Positions 21,518 through 40,347 of a stretch of DNA of 64,000 bases are shown here, one piece after another. The notes beneath the pieces are model-generated. The model did no database searches and was not told the origin of the DNA. It saw only the letters and a program-made list of their open reading frames with translations. The position numbers were made by a program, and so were the translations under genes. Origin of the DNA: Methylocystis sp. GTDB taxonomy: Bacteria; Pseudomonadota; Alphaproteobacteria; Rhizobiales; Beijerinckiaceae. Position 1 is the stretch's first letter; each line of letters starts with the position of its first letter. The stretch lies in assembly GCA_020252485.1 (NCBI GenBank), contig JADCCX010000097.1, positions 1-64,000 of the forward strand, read 5' to 3'.

Positions 21518-22363
21518 GCGTCGTGGACAAAGGTTGACGTAAGACTCGAAGATTGATTCAAGGCTTCTTTTTGGAGGAAGCCTTGGGCGAACGGATCGGT
21601 CTTTCGGACGGGGAATGGGCGTTGATCGGGCCTTTGCTGCCTGCCGAGCGCGGGCGCGGCTGCCGCCCTGCACAGGACAACCGTCGCTACTTCGAAGGCA
21701 TGATGTGGCTGGCGCGGACGGGCGCGCAGTGGCGGCATCTCCCGGACGATTATGGCAAATGGAACAGCGTCTTCCGCCGTTACCGGCGCTGGGTGGAGGT
21801 TGGCGTCTTCGATGCCATGCTGGAGAGCCTGGCGGAGTTGGCCGAGCGAGACCCCTGCGCCGATATGATCGACAGCACGGTTGTCCGGGCGCATCACTGC
21901 GCAGCCGGCCTAAAAAGGGGACTCAAAAAACCGAGGCGCTTGGCCGATCGCGCGGCGGCTTCACCACGAAGCTCCACGCCCGTTGCGATGCCCAAGGCCG
22001 CCCGCTCGGCTTCGTCCTGACGGGTGGAGAAGCGCACGATATCAACGGCTTCGCGCCTCTGCTGCGGATGATCGCCGACAAGATCGAAGCGCTGCTGGCC
22101 GACAAGGGCTACGATGCCGACGCTGTTCGTGAAGAGTTGACGAAGGCCGGGATCGAGGCCGTCATCCCGGCCAAACGCAACCGCAAGAACCCTGCACCCC
22201 ACGATGCCGGGAAATACAAGTGGCGCAACCTGATCGAGAGACTATTCAGCAAGCTCAAGAACTGGCGGCGCGTCGCCACCCGATACGACAAGAGCAAAGA
22301 GTCTTACCTCGGCTTTGTCGCAATCGCTGCAATCAAACTCTGGCTACCCTTTGTCCACGAGGC
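21518..22363 (+). mobile_element. Complete IS5-family insertion sequence, IS427 group (846 bp)
   Basis: The ends form inverted repeats: left GCGTCGTGGACAAAGG (from 21518) and right, on the other strand, GCCTCGTGGACAAAGG (ending at 22363), matching 15 of 16. The tetranucleotide CTAG flanks both sides (21514-21517 and 22364-22367), consistent with the CTAG/TA target preference of IS427-group elements. The interior holds a two-frame DDE transposase with an A6 slippage site. The transposase stop codon TAG is completed by the flanking CTAG. The element looks intact. Confidence 0.9.
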
Positions 22364-22367
22364 CTAG
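21553..22367 (+). CDS. IS5-family (IS427 group) transposase made by frameshift from two overlapping frames
   Basis: The first frame (21553-22020) gives the N-terminal DUF4096-like part, LSDGEWALIGPLLPAERGRG, with MIDSTVVRAHHCAAG carrying the first catalytic Asp. The second frame (ending 22367) supplies RGGFTTKLHARCDAQGRPL, ADKGYDADAVRE (second Asp) and the end with FSKLKNWRRVATRYDK. The frames join by a -1 shift, most likely at the A6 run at 21925-21930, after which the reading becomes TEALGRSRGGF. Programmed frameshifting is the norm for this group, so this is not a broken gene. The start appears to be TTG at 21553; no ATG is available nearby. Confidence 0.85.
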
Positions 22368-24542: not shown

Positions 24543-25250
24543 ATGCCCGGTTTACCCAGTGGACGAATTGTCGATCTGACCCTTACGATGACGGACAACA
24601 TGACGGCGCACAAAATGTTCCAGTCGCCGATCGTCGTTACACATATGCGCCACCCCGAAACGATCAGCTACAAGCTCGGCGTTCCCGGCGATCCGATGAC
24701 ATTCCAGACGAACTTCCTCTCGACCCTCGATCACGTGGGAACGCATGTCGATGCGTTTCTGCACACCAATCCAGACGGCGAATCCGTCGATAACATGCCG
24801 CTGGACATGTTCATGGGAAAAGCCGTCTGCCTCGACCTTCGGCACATTCCCGATCTGGGCGATGTCGACATCGCCGATCTTGAGGCAGCCGAAAGGAAGG
24901 CAGGCGTCAAGATTGATGGGCACATCGTCTTGATGTGCTCGGGCCTGACGAAGAAGCATTATCCGGGGCGAGCGGCCTGTGAATCGAATTGGGGCCTGAC
25001 GGCAGCCGCCACACATTGGCTCGCCGATCGCGGATCGAAGGCGCATGGCGTCGAGGGCCCCTCGACAGATCGCCCGAACTGGACGGAGTTCCCCAGCCAT
25101 CGCGTCTGCCGCGATCGCAAGATCTTCCATTGGGAATGGCTGGTGAACCTTGATGAGCTCGTCGGCAAAGGCGAGTTCTTCTTTAGCGGCGTCCCCCTGA
25201 AGATCGGCGGCGGCTCCGGCTCACCGGTGCGCGCATTCGCGATCGTCTGA
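24543..25250 (+). CDS. Cyclase-family hydrolase (kynurenine formamidase-like)
   Basis: 235-residue metal-dependent hydrolase of the cyclase/KynB superfamily (Pfam Cyclase). The metal motif HxGTHxDxxxH is present as DHVGTHVDAFLH, and VDIADLEAAERKAGVKIDGHIVL and a C-terminal HW/G(V)PL segment fit the fold. Members hydrolyse formamides, isatin or lactam-like rings. With an amidase 80 bases downstream and several cyclic-amide hydrolases further on, a ring-opening or deformylation step is plausible. KynB itself is not claimed because no kynureninase or tryptophan dioxygenase is nearby. A GGAAAGGAAG stretch gives a good ribosome site before the ATG at 24543. Confidence 0.85.
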   Translation: MPGLPSGRIVDLTLTMTDNMTAHKMFQSPIVVTHMRHPETISYKLGVPGDPMTFQTNFLSTLDHVGTHVDAFLHTNPDGESVDNMPLDMFMGKAVCLDLRHIPDLGDVDIADLEAAERKAGVKIDGHIVLMCSGLTKKHYPGRAACESNWGLTAAATHWLADRGSKAHGVEGPSTDRPNWTEFPSHRVCRDRKIFHWEWLVNLDELVGKGEFFFSGVPLKIGGGSGSPVRAFAIV

Positions 25251-25329: not shown

Positions 25330-26739
25330 ATGTCCGAGATACTCTGGAAGTCGGCGGTCGAGCTTCGCGAACTCGTCGCCAGCAAGGCGATCTCGCCCAC
25401 CGAACTGCTTCGCGCGTCGCTGGAACGGCTGAAAGAGGCCGAGGGCGACATCAACGCTTTCGTCGAAGTGACCGAAGATCAGGCTTATGCAGCGGCGCAG
25501 TCTGTCGAGGCTGCGGTTATGCGTGGTGAGCCGCTCGGTGCGTTGGCGGGACTGCCAATCTCGGTCAAGGACCTGATCGCGGTGAAGGGTGCGCGGCTGA
25601 CCTTCGGGTCGCGCGCCATGGCAGAGAACGTTGCAGCTGTGGACGCGCCGTCGGTCGAACGCGTCCGCAGGGCGCAGGGCGTCATCATCGGCAAGACAAC
25701 AACGAGCGAGTTCGGCTGCAAGGGTGTAGGGTCGTCGCCGCTCACCGGAATCACGCGCAATCCGTGGGACCTCTCCAAAACGCCCGGCGGCTCAAGCGCC
25801 GGCGCAGCAGCGAGCATCGCCGCAGGCGTCACATCGATCGGGTTGGGCACCGACGGAGGGGGCTCGATCAGGATCCCCTGTGCGCTCACGGGCCTGTTTG
25901 GCATCAAGGGCCACTTCGGGCGCGTTCCCGTCTTTCCGACGAGCGCGACCCCGACCTTGGCGCATGTCGGCCCAATGGCGCGTACGGTCCGTGACGCGGC
26001 ATTGCTGATGGGGACGATCGCAGGTTTCGATGCGCGCGATCCGGCGGCGGTCGCGCAGCCGGTGCCTGACTATCTCGCCGAATGCGGCAAGTCCGTCCGG
26101 GGACTGCGGATCGCGTGGAGCCCGACGCTCGGCTATGCCCGCCCCAAGCCAGAGGTTCTCGACATCGTCGCCAAAGCGGCAGGGAGCCTCCAGTCACTCG
26201 GCTGTGAAGTCGAACTGGTCGATGACGTTTTCGAGGATCCGCTTGAACTCTTCATGGCGGAGTTTTTCGCCGGTGCGGGAACGCGGCTGCGGCCGGTGCT
26301 CGAAAACCGGCGCGAGCTGCTGGACCCGGCCGTCGCGCGCACGCTCGATATGGCCATGTCGCAGAGCATGAAGGATTACTACGAGAAGGTCTTCAAGCGG
26401 TACGACCTGCGCCTGAAGGTCTGCGAATTCTTCTCGCGCTTCGACCTCCTCGTCACGCCGACCCTGCCGACAGAGGCCTTCGCAGCCGAGGCCGACTTCC
26501 CACCGGACATCGGTTCGCCGGACAACCTTTTTGATTGGATTCAATACACTTATCCGTTCAACCTCACGGGCCTGCCGGCTGCCTCGATCCCGGCTGGCTT
26601 CACTGCCGCCGGCCTGCCCGTGGGCCTGCAGATCGTCGGCCCGCATCTGGGCGAGGCCGTGATCATCCGACTGGCAGCGGCTTTCGAGGCAGCACGGCCA
26701 TGGGACCAACTGAAGCCGCCGATGACGTCGTTGTCATGA
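25330..26739 (+). CDS. Amidase-signature family amidase
   Basis: 469-residue enzyme of the amidase signature family (Ser-cisSer-Lys triad). The catalytic Lys lies in LPISVKDLIAVKG, and the Ser-rich motif reads TPGGSSAGAAASIAAG with the nucleophile in GTDGGGSIRIPCALTGLFG. The length and the C-terminal FNLTGLPAASIPAGF are typical. It hydrolyses a linear amide to acid and ammonia; GatA is unlikely because no gatB or gatC is nearby. With the cyclase-family gene it forms a two-gene unit under LysR. Its 3' end overlaps the convergent GTPase gene by 6 bases. Confidence 0.9.
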   Translation: MSEILWKSAVELRELVASKAISPTELLRASLERLKEAEGDINAFVEVTEDQAYAAAQSVEAAVMRGEPLGALAGLPISVKDLIAVKGARLTFGSRAMAENVAAVDAPSVERVRRAQGVIIGKTTTSEFGCKGVGSSPLTGITRNPWDLSKTPGGSSAGAAASIAAGVTSIGLGTDGGGSIRIPCALTGLFGIKGHFGRVPVFPTSATPTLAHVGPMARTVRDAALLMGTIAGFDARDPAAVAQPVPDYLAECGKSVRGLRIAWSPTLGYARPKPEVLDIVAKAAGSLQSLGCEVELVDDVFEDPLELFMAEFFAGAGTRLRPVLENRRELLDPAVARTLDMAMSQSMKDYYEKVFKRYDLRLKVCEFFSRFDLLVTPTLPTEAFAAEADFPPDIGSPDNLFDWIQYTYPFNLTGLPAASIPAGFTAAGLPVGLQIVGPHLGEAVIIRLAAAFEAARPWDQLKPPMTSLS

Positions 26740-27714
26740 CGTTTCGTCGAGGGACCGCAACCGCTGTTCCGTCGTGAAACGGCTGAGAGAGCGCGGGAGG
26801 TCCTCAGCCGCGAAGCCACGGCCGATGACCGCGATCATGTTGTCGTCGGCAACGGGGCACTCAGTTTCCGGCAGGATCTCGGGTGCCTGGACCGAGGATC
26901 GAACGCTTTGCAACAGCAGGCGCCCTGCCGGTGTGCGGATGACGCCCTTGACCCGCACGATCTCCTCGCCTCTCGCGTGCAAGAGCGCGCTGAGCCACAC
27001 CGCGAAGCTCGCCCAGTCTGGCTCCGGGCCGAGATCGAGGCTCGCCGCGAGCATTGGCCTGTGATCGGCGGCCTGCGGCTCCTGGCATGCGACAAGCGCC
27101 GGGTCTGGTGCGAGCAGAGCGACGGCGCTGCCCCGCACGGCGCCGCTTCGGCTGGCTCCTGGGTTCATGGCCGCGATCGCCGAGACAAGGCGCACGAGTG
27201 AGGCGTCCTCGGTTTCGTCAATTTTCGTGACCACAAGCCGATCCGCCGCCTCGACCTGCGCGCGCGACAGCGGCTCGCCGCGAAGTTGCGCAAGGCCGTT
27301 CACGCCATCAACGACGACGATGATCTCGGCGACCTGGAAGTGATGGATGAGAACCGGATCCGTTTCGATCGCCTCCAGGAGGGCAGCGGGATCTGCGAGC
27401 CCGCTCGTCTCGATGACGACATGGCCCGGTCCGCCATCCTCGGCGCGTGTGCGCTCGTTGGCGACGCTGCGCAGCAGGGCAATGAACTCCGTCCGCCCCT
27501 CACAGCAGGCGCACCCGCCCGGAAGCGTGAGGATGGAGCCCTTGCGGGAAAGGATCAGGCCATCGACCGGGACAGCGGCGGCCTCGTTCACGATCACAAT
27601 CGCATCCGCCATCTGCCCGTGATGCAACTGGTGCCGCAGCCAGGTCGTCTTGCCCGCCCCGAGAAAGCCGCCAATGATCGTGATCTTGAGGCGGTTCTCC
27701 GGCGTGCCGTTCAT
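26734..27714 (-). CDS. COG0523 (CobW/Nha3-like) GTPase, putative metallochaperone
   Basis: 326-residue G3E GTPase. The Walker A is GGFLGAGKTT (residues 15-24), the family metal motif GCxCC appears as GGCACCEGR (Cys68, Cys70, Cys71), Walker B-like ETSGLADP follows, and the base-recognition motif is TKID. The C-terminal CobW_C domain begins near VKGVIRTPAGRLLLQS. COG0523 proteins insert zinc, cobalt or iron into partner enzymes; Nha3 does so for nitrile hydratase. Its start overlaps the upstream CxxC gene by four bases (ATGA), and the operon contains metal-dependent amidohydrolases that are natural client candidates. The actual metal and client are unknown. Confidence 0.88.
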   Translation of the reverse strand: MNGTPENRLKITIIGGFLGAGKTTWLRHQLHHGQMADAIVIVNEAAAVPVDGLILSRKGSILTLPGGCACCEGRTEFIALLRSVANERTRAEDGGPGHVVIETSGLADPAALLEAIETDPVLIHHFQVAEIIVVVDGVNGLAQLRGEPLSRAQVEAADRLVVTKIDETEDASLVRLVSAIAAMNPGASRSGAVRGSAVALLAPDPALVACQEPQAADHRPMLAASLDLGPEPDWASFAVWLSALLHARGEEIVRVKGVIRTPAGRLLLQSVRSSVQAPEILPETECPVADDNMIAVIGRGFAAEDLPRSLSRFTTEQRLRSLDETS

Positions 27715-28010
27715 GACTCCGCGATCCGTGTGAAGCGGGGGTCAAGCGGATCGACCGGCCGACCGCAAAGGCGCTCGGCCGCAACCCAAAGGTCCTTGAG
27801 GTTATCGACGATCTCGATGCGGCCGGTCTTGTCCGAGAGGGCGATCCCCGAGGTCGCCCCGTCGTCATGGGCGCTCAGCCCATAGGACGAAAGCGCGACC
27901 CGCAGACTGGCCGAACGACGGAACCGGCTCCGAAGACGGTCTGTTGCATTGCTGGCGCCTGCCTCGGTCCAGTGGGCCAGGGTCGATGGAAAGCCGCAGT
28001 TTGAGCACAT
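27711..28010 (-). CDS. Small CxxC protein coupled to the COG0523 GTPase
   Basis: 99 residues starting MCSNCGFPSTLAHWTEAGAS, so a CxxC pair sits at the extreme N-terminus with a His nine residues after the second Cys. The rest is Arg-rich then contains ALSSYGLSAHDDGATSG and LWVAAERLCGRPVDPLDPRF. I do not assign a known family with confidence. There is no signal peptide. The gene is translationally coupled to the GTPase (ATGA overlap) and lies 58 bases after the deacetylase-fold enzyme gene. An N-terminal Cys pair plus coupling to a metallochaperone suggests a metal-handling or adaptor role; that is inference. Confidence 0.7.
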   Translation of the reverse strand: MCSNCGFPSTLAHWTEAGASNATDRLRSRFRRSASLRVALSSYGLSAHDDGATSGIALSDKTGRIEIVDNLKDLWVAAERLCGRPVDPLDPRFTRIAES

Positions 28011-28068: not shown

Positions 28069-28971
28069 TCAAATCACCTCGGGCCGCGCCGTACCCGCGA
28101 ATGGATAGCGGCGCCGGAAGTCGTCGGTAATCTCTTCGAAGGTCGCCCACTTCACGCCAGCGTGGCTGTTGATGTACTCGATCAGCCGCTCAAGCATAAG
28201 AAGCACTTGCGGCCGTCCGCTGACGTCGGGGTGGATGGTAAAGCAGAAGGCCGCGTAGTCCATCTCGCGATAGACCCAGTCGAACTGGTCACGCCACATT
28301 TGCTCGATGTCACGCGGGTTGACGAACCCGTGGCTGTTGGGTGCCTTCTTGATAAACATCATCGGTGGAAGGTCATCGACATACCAGTTCGCGGCGATGC
28401 TGACGAGGTCGATTTCGCGGCCATGCTCCATCGGGACCATCCATTCCCGAGCTTTCTTGGAGTAGTCGATCGTGGTCCATTTGTCGCCGACGCGAGCATA
28501 GAAGGGCTGGAAGTCCCGGTAGCCTTGCGAATGATCGTAGGAGAACCCGTACTTCTGCAGAAGGGCGGCCGTGTTGGCGGACATTTCCCACCAAGGTGCG
28601 ACGTAGCCTTTCGGCCGGCGACCCGCCATCTTCTCGATCAATTCGACAGACTTCGCCAGGACATCCTCCTCCTGCTGAAATGTCATGGCGACGGGGTTTT
28701 CGTGGGTGTAGCCGTGAGCCCCGACCTCGTGTCCAGCAGCCACGATCATCTCCATCTCCTTCGGAAACGTCTCGATGGAATGGCCGGGAATGAAGAAACT
28801 GGTCTTCAGGTCGTATTTCTTGAACAGCCGCAGCAACCTGGGCACGCCGACCTCGGTCGCGAAGACGCCGCGCTGGATGTCTGATGGGGAGTCGGCCCCG
28901 CCATAGGAGCCGATCCACCCCGCGACCGAGTCCACGTCGGTGCCGAATGCGCAGTAAATTTCTTTCGTCAT
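28069..28971 (-). CDS. PuuE-like polysaccharide-deacetylase-fold hydrolase (allantoinase or cyclic imide hydrolase type)
   Basis: 300-residue NodB-homology protein. It has [14 protein letters not shown] at the start, [30 protein letters not shown] (metal His pair region) and [21 protein letters not shown]. This layout is the PuuE branch of the fold, which includes metal-independent allantoinase and cyclic imide hydrolases, rather than true chitin or peptidoglycan deacetylases. No signal peptide is present, so it acts in the cytosol. It is in the same operon as the dihydropyrimidinase, so it probably opens a cyclic imide, ureide or hydantoin ring. Which ring cannot be decided from sequence. 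Confidence 0.85.
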
Positions 28972-29038: not shown

Positions 29039-30496
29039 TCAGACCCCAATCGGCATGTGTTTCGCTGATCGTTCGATCGCGCGCGGCGCGACGATTTCCT
29101 TCCATGTCGACAGGGCCTTGCTGACGGCGGGAAAGGCGGGGCGCGCGACGTTCCGGCCGCGGCCCGGCCGCGGTCCGTTCATTCCATCGGCGCTCCAGAC
29201 AACCTCGCCCCGCGAGAGCGTGAAGCGGGGCAGCCCTGCCACCTCGAAACCTTCGAATACGTTGTAGTCGATGATGGATTTCTGGTTGGATGCCGATATC
29301 GTCTTCGTGGCCTTTGGATCCCACACCACGATGTCTGCGTCGGCCCCCGGAAGGATGGCGCCCTTGCGCGGGTAGATGTTGAGGATCTGGGCGATGTTGG
29401 TCGACGTCACCGCGACGAACTCGTTAGGCGTGAGGCGGCCGGGCGTGACCCCATAGGTCCAAAGCAGCGACATGCGGTCCTCGAGGCCACCGGTGCCGTT
29501 GGGGATCTTCGTGAAGTCGTCCCGGCCGAACTGCTTCTGGCGTGTCGTGAAGGCGCAGTGATCCGTGGCCACCACATGCAACGAGCCTGCGGCAAGACCA
29601 GCCCAGAGGCTATCCTGATGATTCTTGTTTCGGAATGGCGGCGACATGACCCTCTGGGCCGCATGGTTCCAGTCGGGATGCGCGTAGACCGTGTCGTCGA
29701 GCAGCAGATGCTGGATCAGCGGCTCGCCATAGACCCGCATCCCCTTCTGGCGCGCGCGGCGGATCGCCTCATGGGCCTGTTCAGAGGAGGTATGAACGAT
29801 GTAGACCGGCACACCTGCCGCGTCCGCCACCATGATGGCCCGATTGGTGGCCTCGCCCTCGACTTCCGGTGGCCGGGAATAGGAATGCGCCTCTGGGCCG
29901 CGGACGCCTTTTTCAAGGAAATTCTGCTGGAGCGCGGCGATGATGTCGCCGTTCTCCGCATGGACCAGCGGCAAGGCGCCGAGGGCTGCGCAGCGCTGGA
30001 AAGACGCGAACATCTCATCGTCATTGACCATCAGGGCGCCCTTGTAGGCCATGAAATGCTTGAAGCTGTTGACGCCCCTGCCGACGACCTGCTCCATCTC
30101 TTCGAAGTGGCGCTTGGACCAGCCGGTGACGCACATATGGAAGGAATAGTCGCAGAGCGACTGACGGCTTGCACGAGCTTCCCATGCATCGAGCGCCTTG
30201 ATCATGCCGCCGGTGTCGGGGATGACGAAATCGACGATCAGGGTCGTGCCGCCGGAGATCGCGGCGTGGGTGCCGCTCTCCCAGGTTTCGGCCGTCGTGG
30301 TGCCCATGAAGGGCATCTCGAGATGGGTGTGCGGATCGATCCCGCCGGGCATCACATAAGCGTCCTGGGCATCGACAACCTTGTCCCCGGAGAGTTCAGG
30401 CCCGATTTGCGCGATGGTCTCACCAATGATGAGCACGTCCGCCTTGTAGGTGCGATCCGCGGCCACGATCGTTCCGCCCTTAATGACTGTCGACAT
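29039..30496 (-). CDS. Dihydropyrimidinase / hydantoinase
   Basis: 485-residue amidohydrolase of the cyclic amidase group. The di-metal site is recognisable: HTH in GGIDPHTHLEMPFMG, the carboxylated Lys in FKHFMAYKG, and the Asp of the ATDHCAFT motif. The family opens dihydrouracil and 5-substituted hydantoins to N-carbamoyl acids. The downstream M20 amidohydrolase would then remove the carbamoyl group. The usual partner preA/preT (dihydropyrimidine dehydrogenase) is absent, which points to hydantoin- or imide-type use rather than uracil breakdown. An AGGAG-type site precedes the ATG. The stretch 30497-30730 upstream has no gene I can support. Confidence 0.92.
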   Translation of the reverse strand: MSTVIKGGTIVAADRTYKADVLIIGETIAQIGPELSGDKVVDAQDAYVMPGGIDPHTHLEMPFMGTTTAETWESGTHAAISGGTTLIVDFVIPDTGGMIKALDAWEARASRQSLCDYSFHMCVTGWSKRHFEEMEQVVGRGVNSFKHFMAYKGALMVNDDEMFASFQRCAALGALPLVHAENGDIIAALQQNFLEKGVRGPEAHSYSRPPEVEGEATNRAIMVADAAGVPVYIVHTSSEQAHEAIRRARQKGMRVYGEPLIQHLLLDDTVYAHPDWNHAAQRVMSPPFRNKNHQDSLWAGLAAGSLHVVATDHCAFTTRQKQFGRDDFTKIPNGTGGLEDRMSLLWTYGVTPGRLTPNEFVAVTSTNIAQILNIYPRKGAILPGADADIVVWDPKATKTISASNQKSIIDYNVFEGFEVAGLPRFTLSRGEVVWSADGMNGPRPGRGRNVARPAFPAVSKALSTWKEIVAPRAIERSAKHMPIGV

Positions 30497-30730: not shown

Positions 30731-31747
30731 TCATCGGCGTCCCGATGCTGGCCCCGCGGGCGCAAACTCGCCGCTGATGTCGAGCAGCAGCTTGCCGCTG
30801 ATCGTGCGCGACGCCAGTGCGGCGAACATCGCATCCGCCTCGGCCATCGGAAAAATGCGCTCGATCGGGACTTGCAGCGACCCGTTGACGATGTCCGTCA
30901 CCACCGCATCGACGCAGGCCATCCACGCAGGCGAGCGATAATCGAGGTGGCCGAGATGCATTCGGCCGAAGGTTAGTGATTTCGCAACCAGGCGCTCCCA
31001 GAGGTTCGGCCAAGGCTTGCCTTCCGCTTCTCCGTAGCTCACGACGTGGCCCAGCCGACGGATCGTGTCGAAGCTGCGGTCGAGGGTCGAGGCGCCTACC
31101 GAGTCGATCACCTTGTCTACGCCTCGGCCCGCCGTGAAGCGCATCACCTCGGCGACGAAGTCGTGCTCCTCGCGGTTGATCACGAGATCTGCGCCATAGG
31201 CGAGCGCCCGAGACTCCTTCCCGCGTGTCCCGACGGTTCCAATGACCGTTGCTCCCGCCTTCTTGGCGAACTGGGTGAGGTAGAGCCCGACACCACCTCC
31301 GATGGCATGGATCAGGACGACGTCGCCCTTCTGAGTGTTCGTCATCGTATGCAGGAGGTTCCAGGCCGTCGTCGCCTGGATGTAGGCGGCGGCGCCCGTA
31401 TCGTAACCGATCGAGGCGGGTAGCCTGATCAGGCGCTCCTCCGGAACGGCGCAGTACTCCGCGAATGCTCCGGCATTTTCGGAGAAGGCCGCGACTCGGT
31501 CGCCAGGAGCAAAGGCCGTCACCCCTTGGCCGACTTGCACGATCTCGCCGGCCATCTCCAGGCCGGCCACGAGAGGATAGCCCTTTGGGTGCGGATAAGT
31601 GCCGCTGCGCATCATCATGTCAGCGAAGTTGAGCCCCGCGCAAGCAACGCGGACCAGAACCTCCCCGGTCTGCACGCTGGGCACGGCGATCTCGCGCAAC
31701 ATGTCGGGATCAAGCCGTCCGGGCTCCTGGAACACGATGGCTTTCAT
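30731..31747 (-). CDS. Quinone oxidoreductase-like zinc-less MDR dehydrogenase
   Basis: 338-residue medium-chain dehydrogenase/reductase of the NADPH:quinone oxidoreductase (QOR) group. The N-terminal GroES-like domain has GLNFADMMMRSGTYP and GLEMAGEIVQVG. The Rossmann motif is HAIGGGVGLYLTQFAKKAGATVIGTV. The structural and catalytic zinc residues of alcohol dehydrogenases are absent, as expected. It lies between the transporter and the dihydropyrimidinase on the same strand. A reduction of a conjugated double bond, for example an enoyl or maleimide-type substrate, would fit this context, but this is a guess. Confidence 0.87.
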   Translation of the reverse strand: MKAIVFQEPGRLDPDMLREIAVPSVQTGEVLVRVACAGLNFADMMMRSGTYPHPKGYPLVAGLEMAGEIVQVGQGVTAFAPGDRVAAFSENAGAFAEYCAVPEERLIRLPASIGYDTGAAAYIQATTAWNLLHTMTNTQKGDVVLIHAIGGGVGLYLTQFAKKAGATVIGTVGTRGKESRALAYGADLVINREEHDFVAEVMRFTAGRGVDKVIDSVGASTLDRSFDTIRRLGHVVSYGEAEGKPWPNLWERLVAKSLTFGRMHLGHLDYRSPAWMACVDAVVTDIVNGSLQVPIERIFPMAEADAMFAALASRTISGKLLLDISGEFAPAGPASGRR

Positions 31748-31792: not shown

Positions 31793-32530
31793 TCAGTCCG
31801 AGCGATGCCGGCCGAGATAGGCGTCAAGAACACGATCGTCGTGGGCAAGTTCGCGAGAAGGACCCGAGAACATCGTTCGCCCGTTCTCCATCACGTAGGT
31901 CCGGCTGGTGACCTGAAGCGCGTAGCTCGCCATCTGCTCGACGAGCAGGATCGACAGGCCGCGTGCATTGAGTCCCGCGAGGATGGGGAAGAGCATGTCG
32001 AGGATCTTCGGCGCGAGACCGAGCGAAAGCTCGTCCACGATGAGCAACCGCGGTTTTGACAGCAGCCCGCGCGCAATCGCCAGCATCTGCTGCTCTCCGC
32101 CGGAAAGCGAACCTCCGAGTTGACCGATCCGCTCCCTTAGCCGCGGGAACAGTTCAAGCACCTCATCCATGTCTTGGCCGACGCTCTGATCATTGCGCAT
32201 CACGCGGCTGTACGCCCCGAGCAGCAGGTTCTCCCGCACGGTCTGGTCGCCGAAGATCATGCGCCCCTCAGGCACCATGGCGACACCCAAATGTACCATC
32301 GCGTGGCCGCGCCTGCCGGTCACGTCCGCTCCGTCGAAACGCACCTTGCCGCCCGCCGGCCTCAGAACACCGGCGATTGCACGCATTGTCGAGCTTTTCC
32401 CGGCCCCATTCGACCCAATCACGCCCACAAACTCTCCGGGCATAACTGAAAGCGTGGCATCGGTCACGGCCTCGATGGCACCGTAGCGGACCTGGAGCCC
32501 CTCTATCGAAAGCAGCGGAGAAGTCGTCAC
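31793..32530 (-). CDS. Branched-chain/amide-type ABC transporter ATP-binding protein (LivF-like)
   Basis: 245-residue ATPase with Walker A GSNGAGKSS, signature LSGGEQQMLAIARGL, Walker B LLIVDELSLGL and the H-loop region replaced by the LivF-typical LLVEQMASYAL. It is the second nucleotide-binding subunit of a HAAT-family importer. Its start overlaps the stop of the fused LivM-LivG gene by four bases. Importers of this family with catabolic neighbours often carry urea, amides or aromatic acids rather than leucine. Confidence 0.92.
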   Translation of the reverse strand: MTTSPLLSIEGLQVRYGAIEAVTDATLSVMPGEFVGVIGSNGAGKSSTMRAIAGVLRPAGGKVRFDGADVTGRRGHAMVHLGVAMVPEGRMIFGDQTVRENLLLGAYSRVMRNDQSVGQDMDEVLELFPRLRERIGQLGGSLSGGEQQMLAIARGLLSKPRLLIVDELSLGLAPKILDMLFPILAGLNARGLSILLVEQMASYALQVTSRTYVMENGRTMFSGPSRELAHDDRVLDAYLGRHRSD

Positions 32531-34383
32531 TGCACGGTCTCCTGATGTGGCGTCGGCTTCGCTGCATGGCCGAAATAGGCCTCGATGACGCGGGGATTCT
32601 CCCGTATCTCGCCCGGACGGCCGGATGCGATGACCTGACCGTAATCCAGCACTGTGACATGGTCGGACACAGCCATGATCATGTCGACGTGATGCTCAAC
32701 GAGCAGGATGGTCAGATTCCGCTTGGCGAGGACCTGGATCAGACGCACCAGATCCTCGATCTCGCCATGCGTCAGTCCGGCGGCTGGCTCATCCAGGAGG
32801 AGCAGTCGCGGACGCAAGGCCAAGGCGCGGGCGATCTCAAGCCTGCGCTGATGCCCGAAGGGCAGCGAGGAGGCAGCGACATCGGCGAATTCTGTGAGGC
32901 CGACGAAATCAAGAAGCGCCTTCGCCTGCGCTCGTGCCTGCGCCTCCTGCCGCCGCGCCGCAGGCGTGCGAGCGGCCGCCGCGAGAATCCCGCAACTGAA
33001 GCTGCCATGGAACCCGACCATAACATTCTCGAGAGCGCTCATCGCCCCGAATAGCTCGGTGTTCTGGAATGTCCGCGCAACACCCGCCGCAGCCATGTCC
33101 GTGGACGCGACACCCGTAACGTCGTGGCCCGCGAGGCGGATCGTCCCGGCGCTGGGGCGATAAAAGCCCGAAATCATATTGATGACGCTCGATTTGCCGG
33201 CGCCGTTGGGGCCAATCAGGGCATGGACGCTTCCGGTCGTTGCAACGAGATCGACTGAATCGACGGCCACAAGCCCGCCGAAGCGCAGCGTCAACCCCTC
33301 GAGTCGCAACGTCTCTGTCTGGCCGGCAGCGGGTGGCCGCACCACTCCTTCGAGATCCGGCGTCCAATGGGGCCAGTCAGAACTCGCTGGCGTGCGCCCG
33401 CTGCTCTGGCGCTGGACAAGCCAGCCCTCGATCGAGCCGACGACGCCTTTGGGCATCGCGAACAGCACCACAAGCAGCATCAACCCGTAGAAAAAGGTCT
33501 GCCACTGCTCAAATGCCTGCAGCAGCACGGATGAATAGAACACCGTCACGGTTCCAACCAGAGGGCCAAGAAGCGTCCCCGCGCCACCAAGAATGGCCAT
33601 CAGCAGAAACTCGACCGACTGCGTGAAGCGGAAGCTCTCGTAATTCACGAACAGCGCGAGGTTGGTGAAGAGCGCGCCCGCGAGGCCTGCAAAACCTGCA
33701 GAAATCATGAACGCGATGGTCCTCGTGCGGATGATCGAGATTCCCAGCGCCCGCGCCGCGTTCTCGCTCATCGCGCTGGCTCGCATAGCCCTTCCGAGAT
33801 ACGAGCGCAGGATCGTGTACTGGAGCAGGAAGGATAGGACGAGACAGAACAGCACGACGTAGTACAAGGCGTACCATGCGTTCGGTCGAAGCGTGAGCGG
33901 AAGCCCAAGGAACTCGCCGCGGGGTATGCTCGACAGTCCCGATGCGCCCCCCGTCACCGGCACCCACTCCCGCAGCACGTTCACGAACACGAGCCCGAAA
34001 GCCACCGTGATCACGGCTAGAAACACGCCGCGAACGCGGACCGAAGGATAGGCAAGGACGGCTCCCATAGCGGCAGTGAGGGCCACCGACCCGATCACCC
34101 CGGGCACGAAGCCCACGCCCGCCCTCAGGGCAAGCAAAGCCGCCACATGCGCGCCGAAGCCGTAGAGCGCTGCATGCCCAAGGGAAACCAGGCCGGCGGC
34201 GCCGACCAGGATGTTCAGGCCGATAACCACAATCGCGAAGATCATGATGCGGGTGTAAATCCGCAGGTCGAAACTCGTCGGGAAACGGCTGTCGAAGATG
34301 GTGCCGTACCAGGGAAGGACGCACATTCCTGCCACGAGCAGGATCAGGATGCCGGCGACGGTTCTACGAAAAGTGTCGGTCAT
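32527..34383 (-). CDS. Fused LivM permease - LivG ATPase of the HAAT ABC importer
   Basis: 618 residues combining two normally separate subunits. Residues about 1-310 form the LivM permease with eight or more helices, including the conserved GAAGLVSLGHAALYGFGAH. Residues about 355-610 form the LivG ATPase with Walker A GPNGAGKSS, signature-region LPFGHQRRLEIARALA, Walker B LLLLDEPAAGL and H-loop VEHHVDMIM. A linker of about 40 residues joins them. Such fusions are known in Hyphomicrobiales. Four-base overlaps with livH and livF on either side show tight coupling. Confidence 0.92.
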   Translation of the reverse strand: MTDTFRRTVAGILILLVAGMCVLPWYGTIFDSRFPTSFDLRIYTRIMIFAIVVIGLNILVGAAGLVSLGHAALYGFGAHVAALLALRAGVGFVPGVIGSVALTAAMGAVLAYPSVRVRGVFLAVITVAFGLVFVNVLREWVPVTGGASGLSSIPRGEFLGLPLTLRPNAWYALYYVVLFCLVLSFLLQYTILRSYLGRAMRASAMSENAARALGISIIRTRTIAFMISAGFAGLAGALFTNLALFVNYESFRFTQSVEFLLMAILGGAGTLLGPLVGTVTVFYSSVLLQAFEQWQTFFYGLMLLVVLFAMPKGVVGSIEGWLVQRQSSGRTPASSDWPHWTPDLEGVVRPPAAGQTETLRLEGLTLRFGGLVAVDSVDLVATTGSVHALIGPNGAGKSSVINMISGFYRPSAGTIRLAGHDVTGVASTDMAAAGVARTFQNTELFGAMSALENVMVGFHGSFSCGILAAAARTPAARRQEAQARAQAKALLDFVGLTEFADVAASSLPFGHQRRLEIARALALRPRLLLLDEPAAGLTHGEIEDLVRLIQVLAKRNLTILLVEHHVDMIMAVSDHVTVLDYGQVIASGRPGEIRENPRVIEAYFGHAAKPTPHQETVQ

Positions 34384-35255
34384 ACCTTAGCCACTTCCTT
34401 ACGCGCGAATATCCCCTGCGGAAACGCCAGGAGGACAAGGATCATGATGCTGAATCCGACGGCGTCGCGGGCCGAAGTTGAAAAATATCCTTCGATGAAG
34501 CGCTCCACCACACCAAAGACCAGCGCAACGATCACGACGCCCGCAGGGTTTGTTATTCCAGCGATGATGGCGACCATGAAGGCCTTCAGGCCGAAGGCCA
34601 GGCCGATGGTCGTGGAGGCCTGGATGACCGGTGCCACAAGGAAGCCGGCGAGCGCACCAAGGCCGCCAGCGACCGCGAAGACGTAGAGGGTGACCCGATC
34701 CGCATCGATTCCCATCAATTCGGCTGCGGTACGGTTGGCTGCCACGGCGCGGATGGCCCGACCGAGATGGGTGCGGCTCTGGAACAGGTAAAGCGCCAGA
34801 GTGGTCAGCACAGCAACTGCCGGAAGAAGGAGTTCCTGCGGAAAGATTCCTGCACCGCCAATGCGAAGCGGTTCATCCATCAAGGGCGAAGGCAGGGGGC
34901 GGGCCGCTGAGCCGAGCAGTGCCGTTGAAGCGCCGACGATCATGACGCCGATCGCGACTGTGGTCAGCATCCAGCCCACGGAATTGGGCTCACGGTTAAA
35001 GGGCCGAATGAGGAAGCGCTCGATGAGAGCGCCGGCGATAGTCGCGATCAGGATGGCCAACACTGCGCTCACCCAGACCGGAAGCCCGAGGCCGAGGAAC
35101 ACCACCGTTCCCATGCCGCCGACCATGAAGATGTCACCGTGATTAAAGTTGGCGGCGCGCGCCACGCTCCACATCATGGAGAAACCGAGAGCCAGCAACG
35201 CATAGACGCCGCCGATTGACAGGCCGGACAAGAAATACTGGATGCTCGCGCCCAT
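34380..35255 (-). CDS. HAAT ABC importer permease (LivH-like)
   Basis: 291-residue inner-membrane permease with about eight helices. The N-terminal GLSIGGVYALLALGFSMMWS and NFNHGDIFMVGGM are typical LivH motifs, and the EAA-like loop RAVAANRTAAELMGID contacts the ATPases. The stop overlaps the start of the LivM-LivG fusion. It lies 104 bases after the binding-protein gene. The transporter set is complete: binding protein, two permease modules and two ATPase modules. Confidence 0.92.
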   Translation of the reverse strand: MGASIQYFLSGLSIGGVYALLALGFSMMWSVARAANFNHGDIFMVGGMGTVVFLGLGLPVWVSAVLAILIATIAGALIERFLIRPFNREPNSVGWMLTTVAIGVMIVGASTALLGSAARPLPSPLMDEPLRIGGAGIFPQELLLPAVAVLTTLALYLFQSRTHLGRAIRAVAANRTAAELMGIDADRVTLYVFAVAGGLGALAGFLVAPVIQASTTIGLAFGLKAFMVAIIAGITNPAGVVIVALVFGVVERFIEGYFSTSARDAVGFSIMILVLLAFPQGIFARKEVAKV

Positions 35256-35359: not shown

Positions 35360-36571
35360 TCATTTCTTTGCGGCGTAGGGACTGTCCTCGACGGGGATCA
35401 CCATGCCGTCGTGGAAAACGAACATCCGGTACATCTCCGCGCGGAGAGCGTCGTGGTTCTGTGGCGAAAAGGCCGGATTGTAGTCGGTGATGAGGCCCCG
35501 GAATTGGACCTTGTAGAGTGCGTCCCGCAGCTTCGTACGATCAAACGAGCCCGCCAGAGTGATGGCTCGCGCGATGATGTTGGTCACATCGTAGGCAGAG
35601 GCGGTACCGGAATGAAGCAGCAGATCCTTCGGTCCCGTGACCTCCCTGTTGTTCGCCATAATGGTGTTCAGCACGCGTTGCGCATTCGGGTCCAACTTGC
35701 CCCAGAACGAGAAGGTGCCCATCACGCGCACCCCGTTGGCCAGCGGTCCAGCGGTCGAACTCAGCTGCGCGCCAATTCCGAGCGCCGAAACAATCGTCGG
35801 CCGGTAGTTCAGGCGCTCCATCGAGCGCAGAAGGGCGTCGGTCTCTGCATCGAGGCCATAATAAACGATCGACTCGGCGCCCGCCGTCCGCAGTCGGATC
35901 AGTTGGGCGGTCATGTCGGTGTCGCCGACGTTGAAAGTCTCCGTACCAACGAGGGTAAGGTTAGCATTCTTGGCCGCATTTTGCACGAAGGGCGCGGCGC
36001 CCTGGCCCCATGCGCTGGCCTCGTGCATGAAGGCGACCTTGCGAGCTGGGGAGAGTTTGAGGGCGTTGTCGATCAAGAACGGAGCGACGAGGCCGTCATT
36101 GAGCCCGACGCGGAACATCCACTTGTTTGCGCGGCCCTCGTGATCGAGAACACGGACGCCGGCCGAAACCACTCCGATCCACGGCAACCCCATGTCGTGC
36201 AGCGGCTGGCGCAGGGCGATCGCACTGGGCGTGCGAGCACCGCCGATCATGACGATGCAGTTGTCCTGCTCGCCGATGCGCATGGCATTGTCGACAGCCC
36301 GGGGCGGCTCACCCCCGTCGTCATAGACGCGGAGCCTCAGCTGCTGGCCGAGCACACCGCCGGCGCCGTTGATTTCAGCCAAGGCGGTCTCGACGCCGTA
36401 CCGGATTTGGCGTCCCAGATGGGCGAGAGCGCCCGTCAATTCCCATGAGGCGCCAATACACGGTTGGGCCTGTTGGGCAGCCGCAGGGATTGCGGTGACG
36501 CTGATTGCGGCCAGGACCGCCGAGGCCAAGCTTCCCCGAAGGGCAAGCTTGCGTAGGAAACCTGTTCTCAT
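35360..36571 (-). CDS. HAAT ABC importer substrate-binding protein (LivK-like)
   Basis: 403-residue periplasmic binding protein with signal peptide LRKLALRGSLASAVLAAISVTAIPAAAQQ (cleavage near residue 32), followed by CIGASWELTGALAHLGRQIR and EINGAGGVLGQQLRLRVYDD, the usual Peripla_BP_6 pattern. The ligand is not readable from sequence. It is the first transporter gene after the M20 amidohydrolase, with a 117-base gap (36572-36688) that may hold an internal promoter. The location suggests the imported ligand is the cyclic substrate or its N-carbamoyl product. Confidence 0.9.
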   Translation of the reverse strand: MRTGFLRKLALRGSLASAVLAAISVTAIPAAAQQAQPCIGASWELTGALAHLGRQIRYGVETALAEINGAGGVLGQQLRLRVYDDGGEPPRAVDNAMRIGEQDNCIVMIGGARTPSAIALRQPLHDMGLPWIGVVSAGVRVLDHEGRANKWMFRVGLNDGLVAPFLIDNALKLSPARKVAFMHEASAWGQGAAPFVQNAAKNANLTLVGTETFNVGDTDMTAQLIRLRTAGAESIVYYGLDAETDALLRSMERLNYRPTIVSALGIGAQLSSTAGPLANGVRVMGTFSFWGKLDPNAQRVLNTIMANNREVTGPKDLLLHSGTASAYDVTNIIARAITLAGSFDRTKLRDALYKVQFRGLITDYNPAFSPQNHDALRAEMYRMFVFHDGMVIPVEDSPYAAKK

Positions 36572-36688: not shown

Positions 36689-37978
36689 TCACGCCTCTCC
36701 GTACGCGAGTTCGTAGAGCGTCCCGGCAAGAACCTGAATGCCGGCGACAATATCCTCTACGCTGGAGAATTCCTCCGGCGTGTGGCTGCGCCCATCGCGC
36801 GAACGGATGAACACCATTCCAACCGGGCAGAGGGCTGCGATCTGCTGCGAGTCATGACCAGCGCCACTGGCCAGGCTCATGACGGGAATATTTTCCCGGA
36901 CAGCCGCGCGAGCCATCGCTGCCGAAACGGCTGGCGCGCATGGCGTCGCCTTATGGTCGAGAAGAACGCGCGTCTCGGCCTGCAGCCCCCGCCTCGTGGC
37001 AACTTCGGCCACGATCTCTTGGTGGATCCGCTGCATCTGGTCAGCAATTGTCTGGTCGGGATGCCTCGAGTCGATGGTGAAGGTCACCTTGCCCGGCACC
37101 ACGGCAGGAAGATTTGGCACCGTCACGCAGCGCCCAACGGTCGTCACCGCAGGACGTCCCATGCGATGTGCGTGATCGACCACGCGCCCGGCGATCTCGG
37201 CGAACCCCTGCATCGGATCACGACGCAGATCCATCGGGAAGGCACCGGCGTGGTTCTGCTCGCCCGAAAGCGTCACCTCCGTATGGCGGATTCCAGTGAT
37301 CCCTGTGACGATGCCGACGGGCAGACCTGCATGCTCGAGGATCGGTCCCTGCTCAATGTGCAGTTCGACGAAGGCCGCAAGGTCATTGCGTCTCGCCGCA
37401 GGGGCGAGCGCAGGATCGAATCCAACCTCGCGCATGGCCTCGGCGATCGGGACGCCGTTCCGATCGACGACGCGGTCAACGTCACCCGAGGCGATGCGCC
37501 CGGTTACAGCGCGCGAGCCCCAGAATCCGGCGGTTGGAAAGCGGCTGCCTTCCTCTTCGCAGAGCGACACCACCTCGATCGGACGGAGCGGAGGCCCGAA
37601 GCGACGCAGCAACGCGCCGGTGGCGACAAGCGCGGCGATGATGCCAAGGGCGCCGTCATAACGGCCGCCCGGGCATTGGCTGTCTTGATGGGATCCGGAG
37701 GCGATCGCGCGCTGATCCGTGGCGCGTCCGTTCACTCGTCCCCAAAGATTGCCGACTGAATCCTCGCGGACGAGGAGGCCGGCATCCGCAAACCACGCCT
37801 TAAGGAGAGTATTCGCCTCGACCCACTCAGGCGAGTACGCCGTGCGCGAAACGCCGGTATCGCCGCTGCGCCCGATCATCCCCAGCCTGACGATCATGCG
37901 CTCAACGGCAGCCCCGTCGATGTTGAGGCCGAGCGAAGCGCGGTTATGACCGATCGCGGGGTCCTCTACAGCAGCCAC
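36689..37978 (-). CDS. M20-family Zn-dependent amidohydrolase (N-carbamoyl-L-amino acid hydrolase / allantoate amidohydrolase type)
   Basis: About 429 residues. Metal-binding segments of the HyuC/AllC/Uaase group are visible: ASGSHQDSQCPGGRYDGALG, LCEEEGSRFP, ELHIEQGPILE and the C-terminal SGAGHDSQQIA. The dimerisation insert with TLSGEQNHAGAFPMDLRRDP fits as well. The family removes carbamoyl groups from N-carbamoyl amino acids, beta-ureidopropionate or allantoate, so it should follow the hydantoinase. The frame is open up to 38071, but the GTG at 37978 is preferred as start: AGAGG lies 8 bases upstream and the family begins there. Divergent from hyuA. Confidence 0.9.
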   Translation of the reverse strand: MAAVEDPAIGHNRASLGLNIDGAAVERMIVRLGMIGRSGDTGVSRTAYSPEWVEANTLLKAWFADAGLLVREDSVGNLWGRVNGRATDQRAIASGSHQDSQCPGGRYDGALGIIAALVATGALLRRFGPPLRPIEVVSLCEEEGSRFPTAGFWGSRAVTGRIASGDVDRVVDRNGVPIAEAMREVGFDPALAPAARRNDLAAFVELHIEQGPILEHAGLPVGIVTGITGIRHTEVTLSGEQNHAGAFPMDLRRDPMQGFAEIAGRVVDHAHRMGRPAVTTVGRCVTVPNLPAVVPGKVTFTIDSRHPDQTIADQMQRIHQEIVAEVATRRGLQAETRVLLDHKATPCAPAVSAAMARAAVRENIPVMSLASGAGHDSQQIAALCPVGMVFIRSRDGRSHTPEEFSSVEDIVAGIQVLAGTLYELAYGEA

Positions 37979-38217
37979 GGCCCTCACCTCTGCCAGACCC
38001 GCGAGGAGCCATCTTCCTAGGGCAAGGTCGCGGGAAATTAATGATTGTGGACTCAGAATGCACCATATCAAGCGAAATACAAGGGCAAACTGGACACCCT
38101 AAATCTTTTGCCTAAAACTTGGACGCGCTGCCTTGCAATCCATCATTCATGGGGCGGGTTTGTGAATTCGTAAGGTCGATAGCAGATGGCGCGAAGGTGC
38201 TTTTCACGCCAGGGCTT

Positions 38218-38234
38218 ATGCATTATGGATGCAT
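38218..38234. promoter_or_regulatory. Double ATGCAT motif upstream of hyuA, candidate operator
   Basis: ATGCAT occurs at 38218-38223 and again at 38229-38234, separated by TATGG, so the two palindromic half-turns are spaced 11 bases centre to centre, one DNA turn. It lies 35 bases before the hyuA start codon in the divergent gap 37979-38268. This geometry fits a dimeric or tandem-domain regulator. The GntR protein at 43485-44468 is the obvious candidate. The same motif was not found before that GntR gene. Confidence 0.35.
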
Positions 38235-38268
38235 TAGACATAGAAAATTTCCACGCTTGGAGGCTTTG

Positions 38269-40347
38269 ATGAAGGTGATCGGCGTCGATGTCGGGGGGAC
38301 TTTCACCGATCTGATCTGTTGCGACGTCACGACGGGCGACCTGATGGTCCACAAGGTTTCGACCACGCCGCAAGACCCCTCGGTGGGTGTAATGGCCGGC
38401 ATCCGCGAGCTTTGCGAGCTCAACAATATCGCCTCGTCTGACATTGAATATGTTCTCCATGGCACGACGACAGCCACCAACGCCGTGCTTGAGCACAAGG
38501 GCGCCCGGACCGGGATGATCACCAACGACGGGTTCCGCGACATCATCCACATCGCCCGCCACCAGCGCGCCGAGCACTATTCGATCATGCAGGAGCTGCC
38601 CTGGCAGGATCGGCCGCTGGTCCGCCGGCGGCACCGCAAAACGGTGGCAGGGCGCCTGGCGCCGCCCACCGGACAGGAGCTTGTTCCCCTCGATGAGGCA
38701 GGGGTGCGCGAGGCAGCGGAAGCGCTCAAGATCGAGGGGGTTGAGTCGGTCGCCATTTGCTTCCTTTTCTCCTATCTCGACCCACGGCACGAACGGCGCG
38801 CGCGGGAGATCGTGTCCGAAGTGATGCCTGACGCCTTTGTGACGACGTCCGCAGAGGTTTCACCTCAGTTCCGCGAGTTTGAACGGTTCACGACGGCGTC
38901 GATATCGGCTTTTGTCGGGCCGAAGGTTCGTTCGTACATTAAGCGCCTGGATGCTGCCTTGAAGGCGGGCGGTGTCCAGGGTGAATTGCGGGTCATGGCC
39001 TCCAACGGAGGCGTTGCAACTGCGGGAATGGTTGCGGACAAGCCCGCCCTCACGCTTCTATCGGGCCTTGCTGCCGGCGTCCTGGGCGGCGCCTGGGTCG
39101 GGCGCCAGCTTGCGAAGGATCGATTGATCACGTTCGATGTCGGCGGCACCAGTGCGGATATCGGCATTATTGTCGATGGAGCCGTTGCGGAAACCGACGC
39201 GCGCTCGACCACGATTGCGGGATTTCCGCTGCTGTTGCCCATGCTCGACGTCCATACCATCGGCGCAGGCGGTGGTTCGATCGCCTATGTGGACCGGGGT
39301 GGAGCCTTCCGTGTCGGCCCGCAAAGCGCCGGCGCCTCTCCTGGCCCGGCGGCCTACGGCAGGGGGGGCGCCGAGCCGACCGTCACTGACGCCAATCTCG
39401 TGCTGGGCCGCCTCGATCCCAACGATTTCCTGGGCGGAGGAATGCGACTTGATTTGAATGCCGCCCGGAAAGCGGTGCAGGAGCTGGCGAACCGGCTTGG
39501 CCTCGGCCTCAACGAAACCGCTGAGGGAATTCTCACTATTCTGAACTCGAACATGGCAAACGCCATCCGCTCGCGTACAGTGCAGAAGGGTATCGACCCC
39601 CGTGGCTTCGCACTCGTGGCAATGGGGGGCGCCGGACCGCTGCACGGAGTCGAGGTTGCCGCCATGATTGGCGTGCCGGAAGTCATTGTGCCGCCCTATC
39701 CCGGCATCACCTCCGCGATGGGTCTCTTGACCACGGACCTCAAGTACGACCTCACGCGAACCCAGTTCCAGACCTCCGACGCGATTGATGTTGACCGGCT
39801 CAACCGTGAATTCTTGGACATGGAGGCAGAGCTGCGCAAGCGCCTCGCCGCGGATAACGTGCGGCCGGAGGCCATGAGCTTCAAGCGCATGGGAGAGCTG
39901 CGTTATGTCGGGCAGGGCTACGAGTTGAAGATCGCCATCCCCGAAGGCGTTCTCACCCGGGATCGGATGGCGGGTGTGTGGGCCGGTTTCCATGCGGCGC
40001 ACGCTGCAGAGTATGGCCACGCCTTCGAGGCCAGCACGATCGAACTCGTCAATGTCCGGGTCTCCGGTATCGGGCAGATGCCTAACCTCGAAGCAGCCGC
40101 CCGCCCCGCGGGTGGAAGCCTCGAAGCGGCGAAACTTCGGATGATCGAATGCGTCTTCCGTGCAGGGGACTCCCTGCGGAGCTTGAAGACAAGCGTCTAC
40201 AGGCGCAGCGCACTTCCGGCAGACGTGCCGATCCAGGGGCCTGCGATTTTTCTTCAGAAGGACAGCACCACGGTGGTCCCCCCGGATTGGACCGCCCGGG
40301 TTCACGCAACGGGCAGCATCCTTATTCGTGTCGGAGGTGAGAAATGA
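38269..40347 (+). CDS. hyuA: Hydantoinase/oxoprolinase family protein, subunit A (HyuA)
   Basis: 692 residues with the ATP-binding actin-like fold of N-methylhydantoinase/5-oxoprolinase A subunits. It starts MKVIGVDVGGTFTDLICCD, contains VLHGTTTATNAVLEHKGA, TFDVGGTSADIGII and HTIGAGGGSIAY, the signature phosphate loops of the family. The frame is open from 38119, but GGAGG six bases before the ATG at 38269 and the conserved N-terminus fix the start. With HyuB it forms an ATP-dependent ring-opening enzyme for hydantoins, 5-oxoproline or similar lactams, or a carboxylase-type relative. The hyuB start overlaps its stop. Confidence 0.93.
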   Translation: MKVIGVDVGGTFTDLICCDVTTGDLMVHKVSTTPQDPSVGVMAGIRELCELNNIASSDIEYVLHGTTTATNAVLEHKGARTGMITNDGFRDIIHIARHQRAEHYSIMQELPWQDRPLVRRRHRKTVAGRLAPPTGQELVPLDEAGVREAAEALKIEGVESVAICFLFSYLDPRHERRAREIVSEVMPDAFVTTSAEVSPQFREFERFTTASISAFVGPKVRSYIKRLDAALKAGGVQGELRVMASNGGVATAGMVADKPALTLLSGLAAGVLGGAWVGRQLAKDRLITFDVGGTSADIGIIVDGAVAETDARSTTIAGFPLLLPMLDVHTIGAGGGSIAYVDRGGAFRVGPQSAGASPGPAAYGRGGAEPTVTDANLVLGRLDPNDFLGGGMRLDLNAARKAVQELANRLGLGLNETAEGILTILNSNMANAIRSRTVQKGIDPRGFALVAMGGAGPLHGVEVAAMIGVPEVIVPPYPGITSAMGLLTTDLKYDLTRTQFQTSDAIDVDRLNREFLDMEAELRKRLAADNVRPEAMSFKRMGELRYVGQGYELKIAIPEGVLTRDRMAGVWAGFHAAHAAEYGHAFEASTIELVNVRVSGIGQMPNLEAAARPAGGSLEAAKLRMIECVFRAGDSLRSLKTSVYRRSALPADVPIQGPAIFLQKDSTTVVPPDWTARVHATGSILIRVGGEK

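Follow-up and report, generated by a model that had tools for sequence, protein, structure and literature searches.

The window analysed here is a 64,000-nt stretch of a Methylocystis sp. contig. It holds a gene run on the reverse strand that is opened by an M20 gene and ended by two genes, those of a small CxxC protein and of a COG0523 GTPase (hereafter the pair). The features of the run and of the genes facing it are as follows:

36689-38071, reverse strand: M20 hydantoinase/carbamoylase-family amidase, first gene of the run (TIGR01879, 418 bits)
35360-36571, reverse strand: ABC transporter substrate-binding protein (branched-chain amino acid / urea substrate-binding protein models)
31793-35255, reverse strand: branched-chain-type ABC transporter with LivF, a LivM-LivG fusion and LivH (homology to Liv genes elsewhere)
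30731-31747, reverse strand: quinone oxidoreductase-like zinc-type dehydrogenase (ADH_N and ADH_zinc_N)
29039-30496, reverse strand: D-hydantoinase/dihydropyrimidinase, HydA (TIGR02033, 575 bits, over cut-off)
28069-28971, reverse strand: candidate CE4-fold cyclic imide hydrolase (imidase), probable client, between HydA and the pair
27711-28010, reverse strand: small CxxC protein of 99 aa starting MCSNCGFPS, candidate metallochaperone adaptor of a putative new family
26734-27714, reverse strand: COG0523 (CobW/G3E) GTPase of 326 aa, with an ATGA overlap with the CxxC gene
25330-26739, forward strand: amidase-signature enzyme, candidate half-amidase, convergent with the operon (NF004815, 513.6 bits, over cut-off)
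24543-25250, forward strand: Cyclase-family hydrolase, upstream of the amidase (PF04199, 1e-29)

The open reading frames bear out what an earlier note on this DNA had said of the pair, namely its coordinates, the ATGA overlap, the MCSNCG start, the GCxCC motif and the Walker elements, and also that HydA and the M20 enzyme share its strand and gene run. The same note omitted the constant metal-enzyme neighbour of the pair, the CE4-type imidase encoded between HydA and the pair. In R. johnstonii pRL12 an amidase and then a cyclase are likewise found downstream of the module. Within the transporter genes, the LivM permease and the LivG ATPase are apparently fused in one 618-aa ORF (32527-34383). 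Judged by eye, divergent forward-strand genes adjoining the operon (38119-42137) resemble HyuA/HyuB-type hydantoinase/oxoprolinase subunits, and two overlapping frames near the operon (21553-22367) resemble a frameshift-split IS5-type transposase. A Zur-regulated zinc-stress role was considered and dropped, the lone weak Zur-like match (at 4851) being at chance level and far from the operon.

The GTPase carries a Walker A (GFLGAGKTT), the GCACC motif and TKID, and it matches cobW (PF02492, 1e-34) and CobW_C (PF07683, 2e-9, 37.8 bits, over cut-off), while no NCBIfam subfamily scores over its cut-off. Its nucleotide-binding domain, Walker A, CxCC and CobW_C domain place it in the COG0523/CobW G3E family, and the nearest solved structure is that of YjiA (1nij). 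The CxCC is kept in all 63 pair GTPases examined. In a tree of the pair GTPases and 29 other COG0523 proteins, mostly from module-bearing genomes, the pair GTPases group together, and five paralogues lacking a CxxC neighbour form a clade nested among them; the branch is therefore not exclusive to the module. In 44 of 58 loci the two genes of the pair share 1-17 nt, which suggests coupled translation.

The small protein found no convincing match in Pfam, NCBIfam, PHROGs or PDB sequences, and the annotated plasmid records that mark its gene label the product "hypothetical protein". An alignment of 61 members shows M1, C2, C5, W14, G63, W75, D87, P88 and L89 to be invariant, and G6 (60/61) and H13 (57/61) nearly so. 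The start codon immediately precedes Cys2 in all 60 relatives checked, usually with a purine-rich ribosome-binding sequence before it. Because methionine aminopeptidase normally cleaves off a Met that precedes Cys, the mature protein should carry an N-terminal Cys. Two members modelled with AlphaFold2 (mean pLDDT 80 and 78), on an alignment that left out the rows from plasmid records, are predicted to have a disordered CxxC tail followed by a helix, three strands and a helix; the tail itself is weakly modelled (pLDDT about 40-60). A Foldseek search of the PDB with these models returned nothing below E 0.3. An assignment to the class-II glutamine amidotransferases was tried and rejected, since no GATase domain was detected with Pfam or NCBIfam in the 61 members. 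Going by its sequence, we call the small CxxC protein an apparently undescribed family, absent from the family databases searched here.

The gene directly upstream of the pair encodes a protein with 68% identity to H. pylori HP0310 (198/290; phmmer 4e-142; PDB 3qbu), and it retains a complete CE4 metal site. In an alignment of 64 sequences, the Zn ligands H86 and H90 are present in all 64 and D14 in 62, the other two being gapped at the N-terminus; likewise, of the catalytic Asp and His, D12 is found in 62 (two N-terminal gaps) and H247 in 64. The same CE4-type family includes HxnM of A. nidulans and YZ-26 of P. putida. HxnM acts in fungal nicotinate breakdown, and the metabolites of mutants identified it as a cyclic imidase; it is 64% identical to the P. 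putida cyclic imide hydrolase AAY98498 (YZ-26), and 3qbu is its closest structural homologue (PMC9304392). The structure of HP0310 has a buried small-molecule site, a bound ion and no signal peptide, and the protein was inactive in vitro on the polysaccharide substrates and allantoin tested (PMC3084791); an acetylesterase activity has been reported for it (PMC3688963). Given this kinship, which reaches YZ-26 by way of the HxnM paper (PMC9304392), we read the window CE4-fold protein as an imidase whose substrate is presumed to be a cyclic imide. The annotated records call the whole group of 28069-28971 "polysaccharide deacetylase"; its sequences and the published work speak for cyclic imide hydrolases. 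H. pylori "PgdA", which is HP0310, belongs to this same group, and its peptidoglycan role consequently deserves re-examination.

The association of the pair with the imidase is well supported. When bacterial genome contigs were scanned for the small protein, 14 relatives came up, all with a COG0523 gene directly downstream; a CE4 gene of 78-83% identity lies upstream and close to the small gene in 13 of them, and HydA is found in only three (L004, L006 and L010). We then tallied the neighbours within 8 kb of 62 non-redundant small-protein loci. The COG0523 gene is directly downstream in all 62, which also keep the MCxxCG start, so that the pairing goes well beyond chance; an imidase is near the pair in 59. 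Amidase-signature enzymes are near the pair in 32 loci, asparaginases in 7 and short-chain dehydrogenases in 33. Two pair loci have their imidase farther off, at 10 kb (G261) and at 33 kb on the same contig (G322). In genome G166 the pair stands without an imidase (at E 1e-60); an allantoinase/hydantoinase-type amidohydrolase adjoins the pair there, and a client switch at this locus (L056) is possible. The imidase-less pair of L056 (G166 C7:250000-264000) also lies beside a GntR-type regulator and a Liv transporter.

The module spans replicons of Alpha-, Beta- and Gammaproteobacteria and of Rubrobacter. The triplet is carried on plasmids of Bradyrhizobium, Haematobacter, Paracoccus, Rhizobium, Shinella, Ensifer, Sulfitobacter and Leisingera, and also of Rubrobacter (Actinomycetota), and on Klebsiella and Paraburkholderia plasmids the pair is three genes downstream of the CE4 gene. 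The Rhodococcus plasmid pLRE138 has an imidase relative without the pair nearby. A grouping of two short-chain dehydrogenases, an imidase and an amidase recurs at L017, L019, L069, L071, L075 and other loci, and a bacterial hydroxy-imide or piperidine-dione pathway is a possible explanation for these groups.

The two components also occur together at the level of whole genomes. In a phylum survey of 398 genomes, the imidase and the small protein occur in one identical set of 10 (Fisher p = 4e-20). In an order survey of 397 genomes, where an imidase was counted above 60% identity and the small protein where the model threshold was reached, they number 37 and 33, respectively, with 32 genomes in common (p = 9e-41); these p values overstate the evidence, because genomes within one clade are not independent. 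In three of the five unmatched imidase genomes (G130, G225 and G293) the pair adjoins the enzyme and fell below the threshold of the first model, and in G092 and G224 the imidase is present and the pair is absent. A more distant CE4 protein (39% identity) without the pair is found in G250. The taxonomic breadth of the module, from Alphaproteobacteria to Rubrobacter, is a better argument than the co-occurrence p values. The distance matrices of the three module proteins are correlated as well (Spearman 0.66-0.74), as shared descent would also predict, and the mean identity is 70% for the imidase versus 40-42% for the pair.

Taken together, imidase, CxxC protein and GTPase probably form a dedicated maturation module, made up of the GTPase and a detached CxxC adaptor. 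The imidase would open the ring of cyclic imides, leaving the half-amide for an amidase or asparaginase encoded nearby to finish. The metal, a divalent ion and probably Zn, would be held at the CxCC motif of the GTPase and transferred in a GTP-dependent manner to the Asp-His-His site of the imidase. In the small protein, a Cys-x-x-Cys(-His) tail joined to a small alpha-beta domain would bind metal, and the protein could serve as a separate docking or relay unit that links GTPase and imidase. What the data show directly is the gene module with its conservation, its intact motifs and its co-occurrence; that the small protein binds metal, that the proteins interact, that metal is delivered and in which direction, which metal it is and which imide is cleaved are what we infer from them. 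That the module represents an undescribed class of COG0523 maturation, in which a separate adaptor with an N-terminal Cys and a CxxC handles client recognition or metal relay for CE4-type imidases, we would give about an even chance. The strongest evidence against this reading is that imidase relatives without the pair exist (Rhodococcus pLRE138, G092, G224, HP0310 and HxnM); the pair is thus not universally required, and it may matter only when metal is scarce or for particular metals.

As for the client, the earlier note had put forward two enzymes from this operon, HydA and the M20 amidohydrolase. Each is a metal enzyme encoded in the gene run, a hydantoinase is within 8 kb of the pair in 11 of the 62 loci, and the sole imidase-less pair genome is the one where an allantoinase/hydantoinase-type amidohydrolase adjoins the pair. 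However, no hydantoinase is nearby in the other 51 loci and no M20 hydrolase in any of the 62 (the window's own M20 gene falls just outside the 8-kb range), and 67% of the genomes of the order (256/382) carry hydantoinase genes, against about 9% (33/397) for the small protein. We consider it scarcely probable that the pair serves either enzyme, and the clients named earlier are wrong or at best secondary. What stands of that proposal is a metallochaperone-type GTPase with an unrecognised CxxC partner in a cyclic amide/imide operon, in a Nha3-like arrangement. The neighbour survey it had suggested was run, and rather than occurring mostly without a metal-hydrolase neighbour, as the note had allowed for, the pair has the imidase with its complete metal site beside it in nearly all loci.

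It could also be that the GTPase metallates the CxxC protein, which would then join the imidase as an accessory structural or regulatory subunit, or would be the client itself. The closest coupling is indeed that of the CxxC gene with the GTPase gene, given their frequent overlap, and both proteins covary with the imidase, but the homotetramer formed by HP0310 is complete without such a subunit (PMC3084791) and a tiny Zn protein would be unusual grounds for a dedicated GTPase; we regard this as unlikely. Still less credit can be given to a non-metal role, where the N-terminal Cys pair would be a thiol switch or nucleophile and the GTPase a conformational chaperone for the tetrameric imidase. 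The N-terminal Cys expected in the mature protein would suit it, as would the MCGLCG start of some members, which resembles class-II amidotransferase starts; however, the second Cys is invariant and the His nearly so, as in metal sites, and the idea seems quite improbable. Finally, the GTPase might be a general zinc-limitation COG0523 protein with no specific client, placed in catabolic operons by chance. A link to Zn is widespread among COG0523 proteins (PMC2770081) and the tree does hold nested relatives without a CxxC neighbour, but there is no Zur-like site near the operon, the neighbours of the pair are transporters and amide-cleaving enzymes, and small protein and imidase share identical genomes in the phylum survey, all of which make this explanation very improbable.

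We know of no metallochaperone for the CE4 superfamily, and literature searches returned no paper connecting the imidase or this deacetylase group with COG0523. The client is unknown for most COG0523 branches (PMC9164220). If the proposed maturation module is real, the imidase would be the first identified client for this branch, and the GTPase a metallochaperone for the CE4 superfamily; the link between pair and imidase supplies one COG0523 branch with a specific client that can be tested and with a small partner that is always there. Many bacterial enzymes annotated as "polysaccharide deacetylase" would be reassigned to imide catabolism. The module may also explain the little activity of HP0310 purified without accessory proteins.

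Among the known systems, E. coli YjiA (PDB 1nij/4ixm) shares the GTPase fold and the CxCC, but it has no known small partner and sits on another branch of the GTPase tree. The frequent grouping of short-chain dehydrogenase, imidase and amidase at pair loci parallels HxnW-HxnM-HxnN, although no CxxC/COG0523 pair has been described for HxnM, the YZ-26 imidase or HP0310. In eukaryotic ZNG1-MetAP1, Zn is likewise transferred by a CxCC GTPase, and ZNG1 docks through the zinc-finger region of its client, the contact being made by its N-terminal extension (PMC10642216, for MAP1); here, by contrast, the CxxC unit is a separate protein and the client would be unrelated to MetAP. The other close likeness is to Nha3 / P47K (COG0523 subgroup 2), where Nha3, the activator of Fe-type nitrile hydratase, is a COG0523 protein with its client as operon neighbour (PMC2770081, PMC9164220). 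Both are cases of a COG0523 GTPase gene beside that of one metal hydrolase in a catabolic operon. No nitrile hydratase is found among the window neighbours or the genes of annotated relatives, which sets the window GTPase outside Nha3 proper; its client would instead be a CE4-fold imidase with a mononuclear site, and it has a small CxxC protein as a constant additional partner.
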